This document shows, piece after piece, positions 19,474 through 24,143 of a stretch of DNA of 64,000 nucleotides. Below the pieces are notes generated by a model. That model saw only the letters and a list, made by a program, of their open reading frames with translations. It was not told the DNA's origin and did not search any database. Positions within the stretch are counted from its first letter, which is position 1. Each line of letters starts with the position of its first letter. Origin of the DNA: Solobacterium sp. (GTDB lineage Bacteria > Bacillota_I > Bacilli_A > Erysipelotrichales > Erysipelotrichaceae). The DNA is taken from NCBI GenBank assembly GCA_017512725.1, contig JAFWEW010000032.1:1-64000 (forward strand), given 5' to 3'. The translations under genes were made by a program, and so were the position numbers.

Positions 19474-20103
19474 ATGAAAACGATTATCTGGGACTACAAC
19501 GGAACGATTATTGATGATGTAAAGCTTTGTCTGGATGTGGAAAAATTTATGCTCAAGGAGCGGGAAATGTTTTCCGAATACACGCTTGAAGATTATAAGG
19601 ATCTGTTCTGTTTCCCGGTGATCGATTACTACAAGAAGCTCGGATATACATTTGAACGGGAATCCTATGAAGAGGTTTCCGTGGAATTCAATTACTTATA
19701 TGATCTCGGTTTCAATACCTGCACGCTGATTGACGGGGTAATGGAGAAGATACAGGAATCTTCGTCGCTTGGATATCGGAATGTGATCCTTTCTGCCTGC
19801 CGCCACGATAAACTCGAAAAACAGACGGAACAGCTCAAGATAGCCAAGTATTTTGAAGAGATCATGGGAATCGACAATGATCTGGCGCATTCCAAGATCG
19901 ATCTGGCAAAAGGGTGGATGGATTCCAGCAGTGTCAGACCGGAGGACTGTATGTTCATCGGTGACAGTATTCATGATATGGAAACCGCTCAGGCAATCGG
20001 AGTTGAAAACTATCTTCTTGTAGCCTGCGGTCATCAAAGCTATAAAGTACTGAAGGGTGCAACTGACAAAGTCGTAAAGACCATGTATGAGGTGATTCTT
20101 TGA
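19474..20103 (+). CDS. HAD-superfamily hydrolase, phosphoglycolate-phosphatase-like
   Basis: 209 residues. Motif I is WDYNGTI, in which the second Asp of the usual DxD is Asn; this variant (D-x-N-G-T) recurs in a subgroup of Firmicute HAD proteins. Motif II lies near VILSACRHDKLE, and motif IV is MFIGDSIHDMETA with both acids kept. It is probably a small phosphatase; the substrate is unknown. It starts without a visible ribosome binding site, and its TGA overlaps the TTG start of rlmD. Confidence 0.75.
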   Translation: MKTIIWDYNGTIIDDVKLCLDVEKFMLKEREMFSEYTLEDYKDLFCFPVIDYYKKLGYTFERESYEEVSVEFNYLYDLGFNTCTLIDGVMEKIQESSSLGYRNVILSACRHDKLEKQTEQLKIAKYFEEIMGIDNDLAHSKIDLAKGWMDSSSVRPEDCMFIGDSIHDMETAQAIGVENYLLVACGHQSYKVLKGATDKVVKTMYEVIL

Positions 20104-21230
20104 AGTGTCCGGTACAGAAACAGTGCGGCGCCTGCACAATGATTACCACTTCCTATCCGGAAACACTGCATAAAAAACGAAAAAAGATTATGCGTCTCTA
20201 TCCGGACAAGAAGGTGGAAATGGTTCTCGGAATGGAGGATCCTTTTCATTATCGTCATAAGGTTTATGCCTCATTCCGCAGAACGAAAGACGGTCATTTG
20301 ATCGCTGGACTGTATGAAGAGGGGACACACCGCATCGTACCGACCTCAGACTGCCTGATCCAGAATGAAACCGCCAATGCCATTATCCGAGACTTTACGG
20401 AAATTGCAGACGGCATGAAACTTACTGCTTATCATGAAGATACCGGTTTCGGTATCCTGAGACATTTGTATGTACGGGTATCCAGAAGTGACGGTTCCGT
20501 TCTGCTGGTGATCGTTATTGGAAGCAGAGAACTGCCGGGATCGAAGAAGCTTGTTTCAAAACTGCTTCAGATCCATCCGGAGATCAAAACCATTATCGTA
20601 AATCAGAATCACCGAAAGACATCTATGGTTTTGGGAGACCGGGAAAAAGTGATCTATGGACCGGGCTATATCTTTGATGAGATTTCTGGGATTCGCTTCC
20701 GGATTTCTTGCCATTCGTTTTTTCAGGTAAATCCGGTTCAGACCGAGGTGCTGTATCGGACTGCACTTGATCTCGCTCAGCTTAAGAGCAGTGATGAAGT
20801 GGTGGATCTTTGTTGTGGAATCGGTACGATCACACTGCTTGCGGCAGAAACGGTGAAACATGTGACCGGCGTAGAAGTCGTGCCCCAGGCAATCAAAGAC
20901 GCTAAAGAAAATGCGAAACAGAACGGAATCAAAAATGCTTCATTTATCTGTGATGATATAGCGCATTATCTGTACAAGAATGAAATAAATCCAGATGTTG
21001 TAATTGCGGATCCGCCTAGAAGTGGTTTGGGCAAGACCGTTTCCGAAGCACTTGGCCGTAGCGAGGTAAAGAAAATCGTATATGTTTCCTGCAATCCGGA
21101 AACACAGAAGACAGACTGTGAAATTTTAAGCAGGTATGGGTATGAAATAAAAAGAATTATACCCGTTGATATGTTCTGTTTTACGGATCACGTCGAGTGC
21201 GTAGTATTGATGTCAAGACAAAATACATAA
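20100..21230 (+). CDS. rlmD: 23S rRNA (uracil-C5)-methyltransferase, RlmD/RumA family
   Basis: SAM-dependent RNA m5U methyltransferase of 376 residues. It starts with the 4Fe-4S cysteine pattern CPVQKQCGACTM, lacks an N-terminal TRAM domain, and has the SAM motif VDLCCGIGTITL, DPPRSGLG and the catalytic-cysteine motif VSCNPETQ. Because of the short form the exact target uridine is uncertain (RlmD, RlmCD or TrmA-like). The TTG start overlaps the HAD stop. Its last codons (HVECVVLM) form the left copy of a repeated att-like sequence, showing that the gene is an integration target. Confidence 0.88.
   Translation: MKCPVQKQCGACTMITTSYPETLHKKRKKIMRLYPDKKVEMVLGMEDPFHYRHKVYASFRRTKDGHLIAGLYEEGTHRIVPTSDCLIQNETANAIIRDFTEIADGMKLTAYHEDTGFGILRHLYVRVSRSDGSVLLVIVIGSRELPGSKKLVSKLLQIHPEIKTIIVNQNHRKTSMVLGDREKVIYGPGYIFDEISGIRFRISCHSFFQVNPVQTEVLYRTALDLAQLKSSDEVVDLCCGIGTITLLAAETVKHVTGVEVVPQAIKDAKENAKQNGIKNASFICDDIAHYLYKNEINPDVVIADPPRSGLGKTVSEALGRSEVKKIVYVSCNPETQKTDCEILSRYGYEIKRIIPVDMFCFTDHVECVVLMSRQNT
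21189..21214 (+). repeat. att-like sequence, left copy (3' end of rlmD)
   Basis: Bases in the last codons of rlmD match 21 of 26 positions at 23400-23425, with an uninterrupted 11-base core GTCGAGTGCGT. The 3' end of the rum/rlmD gene is an established integration site for streptococcal ICEs and phages, so this is read as attL or a restored target. Confidence 0.7.
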
Positions 21231-21317: not shown

Positions 21318-21358
21318 ATTGCTCAAAACGACTCTGCGGAAACTGCTCCAGGAGGGCA

Positions 21359-21448
21359 GGTCGAGTTGACAACATTGTTAAAGGACAGGGTTGAGTTGAT
21401 AAGATGGTTATACGGGTGGGTTGAGTTGACAGAATTCTTAATACTCTC
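21359..21448 (+). repeat. Three direct repeats with 30-base periodicity
   Basis: The 13-base motif GGTYGAGTTGAYA begins at 21359, 21389 and 21419, exactly 30 bases apart; the remaining 17 bases of each unit differ. They lie just inside the left att-like site. Possible readings are integrase arm-binding sites or a decayed short-repeat coding sequence. Confidence 0.75.
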
Positions 21449-21507: not shown

Positions 21508-22110
21508 TCAACGGTAATTCTTATCCCAGATCTCTTTTGCGATGACCTGAACCTTTTTGATAAACGCGTAGCTCTGGGTCTTCTCGGTCCCGAGGTCTAC
21601 CTCCGTCAGGATCTCGCCTTTCTTGGCTCCGTCACGCAGCATCTGGATGATGTGAGCGTAGGTCGGGTCCAACTTAGCCAGGTCTTCCAGCAGCGAATTG
21701 AAGCACATCTCCAGCATGAAGTTATCCTCGTGCTCGGTTGTGCCGGTGGGATCGAAGCCTTTGCGGTCATCGTCTTCTGCCGCTTCCAGCATCTCCTCGA
21801 TGGAGGCGAATTCGCTCCACTCATCCTTCTGAAAACGCTTGAGGTAGCGGCTGACCTGATCGTTGAAGTATTTCATGGACTGGTCCAGCTCGTATTTCTT
21901 GACCTGGATGAAGGCGACCGGAACACCTTCTCCGCATCTCGGGAAGTGCCAGGTTTCTGCATTATCCCAGATCAGCCCCAGCTCCTTCAGATAGTCATGG
22001 AAGTCGTCATCAATGACGACCGGTGCCAAGGTCTCGTCAGGGCGGCAAGGAACATTGTTGAAAGGTTTACGGTTACTAAAGTCTCTGTAATGATTGTCTT
22101 TGTTTTGCAC
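21508..22110 (-). CDS. Mobile-element protein with sigma-70-region-4-like C-terminus
   Basis: 200 residues from a GTG that follows AAGGAGGG by 9 bases. The first half (NKDNHYRDFSNRKPFN, later VVIDDDFHDYLKELGLIW) and the acidic middle are not a domain I can name. The end, LDPTYAHIIQMLRDG followed by KTQSYAFIKKVQ, looks like the helix-turn-helix of sigma-70 region 4 as carried by integrative elements of gut Firmicutes. It lies between the rlmD att-like copies and is the best-preserved gene of the scar. A regulator of a lost element is inferred. Confidence 0.6.
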   Translation of the reverse strand: MQNKDNHYRDFSNRKPFNNVPCRPDETLAPVVIDDDFHDYLKELGLIWDNAETWHFPRCGEGVPVAFIQVKKYELDQSMKYFNDQVSRYLKRFQKDEWSEFASIEEMLEAAEDDDRKGFDPTGTTEHEDNFMLEMCFNSLLEDLAKLDPTYAHIIQMLRDGAKKGEILTEVDLGTEKTQSYAFIKKVQVIAKEIWDKNYR

Positions 22111-22138
22111 GAAAAAGCCCTCCTTCGGCTTTGCCGAA
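22111..22138 (-). promoter_or_regulatory. Overlapping hairpins at the ribosome binding site of the sigma-like gene
   Basis: On the minus strand TTCGGC-AAA-GCCGAA directly abuts GGAGGG. An alternative stem AAAGCC/GGCTTT would enclose the Shine-Dalgarno and is followed by Ts. The two structures exclude each other, as in an attenuator or a translational switch. Confidence 0.4.
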
Positions 22139-22408
22139 ACAGAGAGCTCTTTACATGCAGAACCAGACCACACGGGGTGAGGGCAGCTTGATGGATATCT
22201 CCATTTCGGCTGCACCTCACTTCCGGTGATCGGCACAGAATCTATTTTTCAGTTATAGTCACGCGGAAGCGGAAACACCCTGCGCAGATGGTTCCCGCGT
22301 GCTAAGGCCATACTACCTGAAGCATTCGGAATCCCAAAAACTCGGTAAGTTCAGGTCTGTACTATCGGAAAATGGCTTAAAATGGCACTTTCTGAGGAAT
22401 TGAGAAAT

Positions 22409-22434
22409 AAAAAAGGCAGGCCCTTAAGCCTGCC
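22409..22434 (-). terminator. Distal minus-strand terminator
   Basis: GGCAGGC-CCTTAA-GCCTGCC is a perfect 7-bp stem and is followed on the minus strand by TTTTTTATTTC. It backs up the hairpin at 22484-22511. Confidence 0.7.
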
Positions 22435-22471: not shown

Positions 22472-22511
22472 TTCAAAAAAAGAGCCGCACATCTCAAATG
22501 AGGTGTGCGGC
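22472..22511 (-). terminator. Terminator downstream of the double-glycine peptide gene
   Basis: GCCGCACATCTCA/TGAGGTGTGCGGC (13-bp stem, one G-T) is followed on the minus strand by TCTTTTTTTG. It lies about 100 bases after the peptide stop codon. Confidence 0.8.
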
Positions 22512-22612
22512 GTAGAAAAAAATTGGCCCAGTCATCTGACTAAGCCATGCATGTATGGGTTCGTATCGTTTATCTCTTGCAGTTCAGCAATTCTGATTCC
22601 CGCTGATATGAG

Positions 22613-22846
22613 TCAGTAATTATACTTTTTTTGCATCTCGACAACGTAGTTCCACAACTCATCTTTTGCAGCATCATATTCAGCTTTGCTTGCGTCTCCA
22701 TTGAGATAATCGACTCCAACATCTACGAAGCGTTTATGCAGCTTATTATAATGTTCCTTCTCTTCGGCGTTCATTCTGTCCTGAAGAATATCGCCGCCCG
22801 CTATGGATTCAAGTTCCTCGAGACTCAACGTTATCTTATCTTCCAT
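22613..22846 (-). CDS. Orphan double-glycine leader peptide (bacteriocin/RiPP-precursor-like)
   Basis: 77 residues. The first 18, MEDKITLSLEELESIAGG, have the form of a double-glycine leader cut by PCAT-type peptidase transporters (conserved L and E positions, then GG). The predicted core of 59 residues is hydrophilic, helical and rich in Lys, Asp, Glu and Tyr. It has no Cys and few Ser/Thr, which argues against a lanthipeptide or thioether product. AGAAAGGAGA precedes the ATG, and a 26-base palindrome and AT-rich promoter region lie upstream. No transporter, immunity or modification gene is nearby, so it is either a remnant or is exported by a system elsewhere. Confidence 0.7.
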   Translation of the reverse strand: MEDKITLSLEELESIAGGDILQDRMNAEEKEHYNKLHKRFVDVGVDYLNGDASKAEYDAAKDELWNYVVEMQKKYNY

Positions 22847-22885
22847 GACGATTCTCCTTTCTCATCTTCTTTGTCTTTTGTTTTC

Positions 22886-22911
22886 CATACTATATATGGT
22901 TATATACTATG
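22886..22911 (-). promoter_or_regulatory. Palindromic promoter/operator of the double-glycine peptide gene
   Basis: A 26-base near-palindrome with arms CATAGTATATAA and ATATATAGTATG (10 of 12 positions paired) contains TATAGT/TATATA-like -10 boxes about 50 bases before the start. It could be an operator for a quorum- or element-encoded regulator. Confidence 0.5.
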
Positions 22912-22966
22912 AAGGGAGACCTGTCCAGATTTTAAGTAGGTTTAAGCATCAGCGTGTATCTTATAG

Positions 22967-23261: not shown

Positions 23262-23362
23262 GAACAGTTACCGTGAACGGAAGAAACGCGATTTTTGCCA
23301 TTGAGCAGTTCTCGCGAACGAGAGTAGGAGTAAAAAATGCTATTGAGCAGTTACCATGAACG
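23262..23362 (+). repeat. Three 18-base direct repeats spaced 41-42 bases apart
   Basis: GARCAGTTNYCRYGAACG occurs at 23262-23279, 23303-23320 and 23345-23362. The spacing is close to four helical turns, and the array ends 38 bases before the att-like copy at 23400. Such helically phased direct repeats beside an att core suggest arm-type integrase or excisionase sites. Confidence 0.7.
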
Positions 23363-23399
23363 ACCGGTAGCATTAGACGTACTTCATATCAACTCAAGC

Positions 23400-23425
23400 C
23401 ATGTCGAGTGCGTGACATTGATGAC
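23400..23425 (+). repeat. att-like sequence, second copy of the rlmD tail
   Basis: It matches the rlmD 3' end at 21 of 26 positions. In frame it reads SSHVECVTLMTKK and a stop, an RlmD-type C-terminus without a gene in front of it. It marks the probable right junction of the element inserted at rlmD. Confidence 0.7.
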
Positions 23426-24110: not shown

Positions 24111-24143
24111 CATGTCGAAACCTGCATTCTACTGTCACTCTGA
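24111..24143 (+). repeat. Third, more diverged copy of an rlmD-type tail
   Basis: The frame CATGTCGAAACC... reads HVETCILLSL and a stop, again the C-terminus of an RNA uracil methyltransferase without its gene. DNA identity to the other two copies is limited to the first bases (CATGTCGA), so it would represent an older or different element. Confidence 0.45.

Follow-up and report, generated by a model that had tools for sequence, protein, structure and literature searches.

The 77-residue gene at positions 22613-22846 of the window, i.e., the whole 64,000-nucleotide stretch of Solobacterium sp. DNA analyzed here, probably encodes the precursor of a mini-protein that is exported in trans by a C39 exporter encoded elsewhere in the genome (contig C45) and acts extracellularly; the gene stands outside the putative regulon associated with that exporter. 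The gene is most likely a mobile cargo gene whose product is exported in trans.

The window gene, its leader and its core

The open reading frame, the ribosome-binding site and the GG leader of the gene are confirmed (Table 1). The initial annotation was right in describing a 77-residue frame with a strong ribosome site, an export-type leader ending in IAGG and a charged 59-residue core that is free of Cys (9 K/R and 13 D/E).

Table 1. Features of the window locus and their coordinates.
Feature	Position	Strand	Comment
rRNA methyltransferase gene, presumably of the rlmCD family	20100..21230	(+)	likely attachment site at its 3' end
rlmCD 3'-end repeat, copy within the intact gene	21189..21212	(+)	encodes HVECVVLM
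phrog_2513-type protein	21508..22236	(-)	E 4.6e-11; within the same 2.2-kb segment as the GG-leader gene
Third terminator-like hairpin	22415..22434	(-)	
Second hairpin, then T run	22484..22511	(-)	folded with the first, z -6.4 (0/200 shuffles)
First of three downstream intrinsic-terminator-like hairpins, with T run	22524..22547	(-)	
GG-leader peptide gene	22613..22846	(-)	77 aa; coordinates include the stop codon; ATG start
Core	22616..22792	(-)	59 aa, no Cys; two-helix hairpin, residues 27-48 and 54-75, in AlphaFold2 single-sequence model
Leader MEDKITLSLEELESIAGG	22793..22846	(-)	18 aa; L-12, E-8, L-7, I-4, A-3, G-2, G-1, read against LahT recognition positions in PMC6363468
Shine-Dalgarno AAAGGAG	22854..22860	(-)	7 nt before the ATG
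Sigma-A-like promoter TGGACA-N17-TATAAC	22899..22927	(-)	5/6 per hexamer; 52 nt before the ATG; consensus reading only
Second rlmCD-end copy, att-like remnant	23400..23423	(+)	encodes HVECVTLM, then in-frame stop

According to the LahT study, V-4, L-7 and L-12 of the substrate sit in hydrophobic pockets of this peptidase, and charged substitutions at V-4 and L-7 impair cleavage, as do most at L-12 (PMC6363468). The window leader holds every position that LahT is described there to read, i.e., L-12, L-7, I-4 and GG; with its IAGG end and hydrophobic I-4, L-7 and L-12, it fits the sequence pattern of a C39 substrate. A leader pattern built from the GG peptides of the genome finds six matches in the 2.72-Mb genome, and a slightly relaxed form finds 61 in 24 of the 70 genomes of the genus, with no match to the reversed-pattern controls in either search. 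A leader motif that extends well beyond the GG, the empty reversed-pattern controls across 70 genomes and the presence of a matching exporter in the genome argue against an intracellular small protein with an accidental N-terminal GG; even with helices that are charged and only mildly amphipathic (muH 0.39 and 0.32) and a core for which no activity is known, we consider such a protein quite improbable. Against export, none of the curated leader models reaches its cut-off with the window gene (best, RiPP_CCRG-2, 17 vs 24 bits), and the exporter is unlinked to the gene. No NHLP or Nif11 leader domain (TIGR03793/TIGR03798) was found in the 18-aa leader at E<=5 in NCBIfam.

The AlphaFold2 model of the peptide is of moderate confidence (mean pLDDT 78), and a Foldseek search of the PDB with it returned 196 matches, none with E<=0.001. 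uL29-like hairpins and SCIN were considered as structural relatives of the core and dropped, the best Foldseek match being at E 1.8.

Transcription and genomic context

The window gene is probably monocistronic, because terminator-like hairpins lie downstream on its own strand (Table 1), the terminator scan itself giving 2 sites vs a shuffle mean of 3.0, i.e., no excess over shuffles. That the gene lies within an element scar, as the initial annotation had it, is plausible. The 24-nt rlmCD 3' end is identical to the second copy at 20 of 24 positions, which no match in 100 shuffles equaled, and the two copies bound a 2.2-kb segment containing the peptide gene. Such a pair of gene-end repeats, with a stop codon after the second copy, is typical of scars left by site-specific insertion.

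Other repeats were also seen in the window. By eye, a third rlmCD-like end is found near 24113. Three 28-nt tandem units with 30-nt spacing (GGTCGAGTTGACAAC...) occupy 21354-21441, just after rlmCD, and two 26-nt copies (TGCCATTGAGCAGTT..CGAACGA), 42 nt apart, occupy 23296-23363, in the stretch from a 93-aa ORF to the second copy of the rlmCD end.

The neighbors of the window gene are the phrog_2513-type protein, a GNAT, an esterase-like ORF and the 93-aa ORF. None of these, nor a permease-GGDEF protein, was found around rlmCD in relatives, where several of the stretches are short contig ends, and RlmCD loci contained no small GG-leader ORFs (0 in 29 loci, 107 kb, and 0 in 10 loci, 62 kb). The window contains no C39 transporter, and neither an immunity gene nor a bacteriocin operon was seen beside the gene, directly downstream of which are the terminators; the initial annotation had likewise reported no transporter or immunity gene nearby. 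GG peptides serve in cell-to-cell communication too, according to PMC7018657, and the window peptide could be a pheromone sensed by its producer. We regard this as highly improbable, as no receptor, kinase or regulator pair was seen alongside the gene and a folded core of 59 aa is large for a pheromone.

An intact C39 exporter elsewhere in the genome

A transporter elsewhere in the genome had been envisaged by the initial annotation, and the look-up that it advised found just two C39 domains, on contigs C45 and C12, that exceed the Pfam cut-off. The former belongs to an NHLM-type exporter (TIGR03796, 923 bits; cut-off 853) and keeps the Cys (ECGAAC), the His of NHF and the aligned Asp, i.e., its catalytic residues are intact. 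Its best named relatives, at 78% and 74%, come from an uncultured Solobacterium sp. and an uncultured Erysipelotrichaceae bacterium, respectively, which makes Erysipelotrichaceae the probable family of the source genome. In the C12 paralogue, the motif reads ENGAAA, with N in place of Cys, and Tyr is found at the His position. A second species (G010) also has the ENGAAA form, and the C12 paralogue may be a conserved form that binds leaders and does not cleave them. The TIGR03796-like exporter on C12 lies at G000:C12:126022-128190 (L036 9020-11200).

The C45 operon (L035 7833-13545) starts with a gene for an ECF sigma factor (176 aa; TIGR02937, 1.3e-26), followed by those for a 161-aa membrane protein with the N-terminal part of TIGR03794, the TIGR03796 exporter, a TIGR03797-like subunit (694 bits, just under the cut-off of 709) and a STAS anti-sigma-antagonist. 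No anti-sigma gene was recognized in the operon, and the 161-aa membrane protein could take the anti-sigma role. A LanC-like gene is absent from the genome (profile LANC_like).

A scattered pool of GG-leader genes

GG-leader genes are usually sought beside their exporter. In the named exporter loci, 57 small GG-leader ORFs were found beside the exporter in 24 of 80 loci (1354 kb), and the reversed-pattern controls gave none. The source genome has about 20 GG-leader genes, which are scattered: seven found with the leader pattern, 11 more found through the promoter described below, C45:150786 and the second gene of a C12 pair. The gene that the initial annotation treated as an orphan is therefore no isolated curiosity, being one of this set.

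Among the 70 genomes of the genus, 17 encode a TIGR03796 protein over the cut-off, and the GG pattern occurs in 15 of these 17 vs 9 of the 53 without the exporter (Fisher P 1.8e-7, from uncurated counts; after curation, which dropped exporter-less genomes alone, 15/17 vs 5/53, P 2.4e-9). The leader-pattern matches dropped lie within large frames, i.e., those of G037, G013, G026 and G064 and one in G068. A match to the relaxed pattern on C33 of the source genome was also dropped, as it lies within a 706-aa protein.

Several cores behind GG leaders carry recognizable domains. A gene of the source genome that has the regulon promoter upstream (L251; G000:C23:1083) has a GG leader followed by a ferredoxin core of the 2x[4Fe-4S] type (Fer4, E 9.6e-10); in the relative G003, a gene (L100; G003:C63:60080) joins such a leader to a core like translation initiation factor IF-1 (TIGR00008, E 7.5e-19); and in a Ruminococcaceae MAG (L201, around 14492), a GG leader precedes LysM (E 2.9e-10) beside a TIGR03796-type exporter. 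CxxC zinc-ribbon-like cores also occur behind GG leaders. These domains suggest that the cores may be a set of compact folded proteins, serving as effectors or at the cell surface, and not bacteriocins of the classical kind that act on membranes.

A promoter associated with the ECF sigma factor

The element TGGA...CGTATA was noticed upstream of GG genes. The sequence CGTATAWWNWAATGAAR has exactly four matches in the genome, all before the GG genes from which it was derived; with one mismatch allowed, it has seven further matches, two of which lead GG genes missed by the leader pattern. In the form TGGAN{15,16}CGTATAW, the element has 25 matches in the genome vs 4 for controls. Under a fixed rule, a GG-leader ORF lies within 150 nt of 12 of these 25 matches vs 33 of 3000 random positions. 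Inspection by eye raises the count to 14 of 25 by adding those on C21, where the leader fails the spacing of the fixed rule, and C43, the weakest case, where the GG ORF is roughly 300 nt downstream and has a 13-aa core. The leader pattern misses 11 of these 14 genes. No GG-leader gene was seen behind the remaining 11 matches. Three matches to the promoter (L241, L256 and L263, at G000 C8, C35 and C45:140112) precede a lipoprotein (250 aa), a membrane protein (232 aa) and a sensor-like protein (380 aa).

An orthologue of the sigma factor is found in 8 of the 70 genomes of the genus. Its gene adjoins the exporter gene in G000, G001, G028 and G032 and, by coordinates, also in G007 and G049, and lies on a different contig from the exporter in G010 and G060. 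Promoter matches vs controls number 109:9 in the eight genomes with the sigma factor and 258:272 in the other 62; the Mann-Whitney P of this excess is 4.5e-6 (1.6e-5 without the source genome), values that overstate independence, as the eight genomes are probably related. Genomes with the exporter and without the sigma factor (e.g., G017, G011 and G025) have no clear promoter excess. In G001, G007 and G049, the element adjoins the sigma gene but faces the other way, preceding a small gene whose leader ends in GG (NGG), and a more distant sigma factor (44%, Acetatifactor sp.) likewise has the element alongside. The 230 nt upstream of the C45 sigma gene contain no regulon promoter. The ECF sigma factor probably drives most GG genes via TGGA-N16-CGTATAW promoters. 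GG leaders, NHLM exporters and sets of paralogous precursors have been described before (PMC2887384 and PMC6363468). Searches of the open-licence PMC literature showed no account of GG-leader genes under an ECF sigma factor, nor of such a factor linked to the exporter and acting through a sharp promoter on GG genes elsewhere.

The window gene is the exception among the seven leader-found GG genes: five have the element upstream (about 300 nt away on C43), and a sixth is the second gene of an element-bearing pair. Scored with a matrix from 17 own-genome sites, which themselves reach 20-25 bits each as its training sites, the best site at the window gene has -1.2 bits, a score reached by 996 of 2000 shuffles. 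This result overruled a first, noisy promoter model, with which the window gene scored 9.1 bits (84/1000 shuffles). Because the regulon promoter is absent, co-expression of the window gene with the other substrates of the exporter is unsupported.

The missing regulon promoter lends weight to the suggestion of the initial annotation that the gene is stranded. As a stranded remnant, it would have belonged to the GG pool, lost its promoter when it was transferred and ceased to be expressed or used. Its position at the rlmCD 3' end, amid fragments flanked by repeats, and its lack of homologues point the same way. The ORF, the Shine-Dalgarno sequence, the leader and the tandem terminators are nevertheless intact, and a sigma-A-like promoter lies 52 nt upstream; with these, we judge a stranded remnant rather unlikely.

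Kinship of the core

The homologue search that the initial annotation had recommended returned no meaningful match but the peptide itself. Among the genomes of 196 relatives, the next best match (E 0.0076) is a fragment inside a 2376-aa frame; 86 pattern stretches in GTDB contigs and five in IMG/VR yielded no confirmed relative; and one plasmid and two phage records contain only fragments at E>=0.01. The core alone, compared with 223 GG-like ORFs from the loci analyzed, matched nothing but itself below E 0.04. Two weak matches of the peptide within its own genome (E about 0.09) are other GG-leader genes. Selection on the core would have to be gauged against homologues, of which it has none, and the new type of exported peptide suggested by the initial annotation is a conjecture here.

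The largest local GG-leader subfamily, the helical 'SDYF' group, offers one possible origin, with the window gene as a decayed, tail-less member. AlphaFold2 predicts a helix hairpin of about 22+22 residues for both. The subfamily HMM, with which six other members score 24-42 bits in leave-one-out tests, gives the window core 3.8 bits, however, a score reached by 326 of 2000 shuffles, and the core lacks the SDYF tail; this origin appears improbable to us. The window gene is fairly described as a new member whose core is an orphan, and the system around it as a variation on known ones.

Proposed model

Based on these results, we propose that the window gene is transcribed alone from the sigma-A-like promoter, that the C39 domain encoded on C45 may bind its leader and cut after the GG, and that the 59-aa helical core would then be exported in trans by the C45 exporter. 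This exporter would serve the pool of about 20 scattered GG-leader genes, most of which would be switched on by the ECF sigma factor encoded at the head of its operon. The window gene sits in a small, putatively mobile segment at the rlmCD 3' end and may have lost the regulon promoter or never had it. The mature peptide would act outside the cell; competition with or antagonism against neighbors is our best guess for its role, and a weak one.

More tentatively, the window peptide may be an escaped member of a dispersed mini-protein secretome. Such a secretome would consist of about 20 unlinked GG genes with borrowed or domain-like cores (ferredoxin, zinc-ribbon-like folds and helical hairpins; relatives add IF-1 and LysM), a single C39 transporter of the NHLM type and an ECF sigma switch in the exporter operon, with mobile segments adding cargo and the window copy placed on a sigma-A promoter. 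If so, gut Firmicutes would possess a class of secreted mini-proteins derived from housekeeping-type folds, whose function becomes testable. The exporter-linked ECF sigma factor and its sharp promoter provide a handle on unlinked, core-divergent GG genes that the leader pattern misses. Whether a leader alone, without control by the regulon, is enough for export is a question for which the window gene offers a natural test case.

Comparison with known systems

As described in PMC6363468, the LahA/LahT system shares with the window peptide the leader positions -12, -7, -4 and GG, as well as the combination of conserved leaders and diverse cores with one peptidase. LahA leaders are of the Nif11 type and clustered with their exporter, whereas the window leader is not of this type, its exporter is unlinked and its core is Cys-free, predicted to be folded and unmodified-looking. 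The NHLP/Nif11 (N11P) precursors with the TIGR03794/03796/03797 exporter (PMC2887384) share the exporter family and the occurrence of several paralogous precursors per genome. They differ in that neither an NHLP nor a Nif11 domain is found in the window leader, the source genome has no LanC-like gene and its other precursors are probably under an ECF sigma regulon with TGGA-N16-CGTATAW promoters. Class II bacteriocins of Gram-positive bacteria have in common with the window peptide a short GG leader and a core that, in the window peptide, looks unmodified. Unlike them, the window gene lies outside a bacteriocin operon, with no immunity gene seen, and encodes a charged core of 59 aa that is predicted to form two helices.
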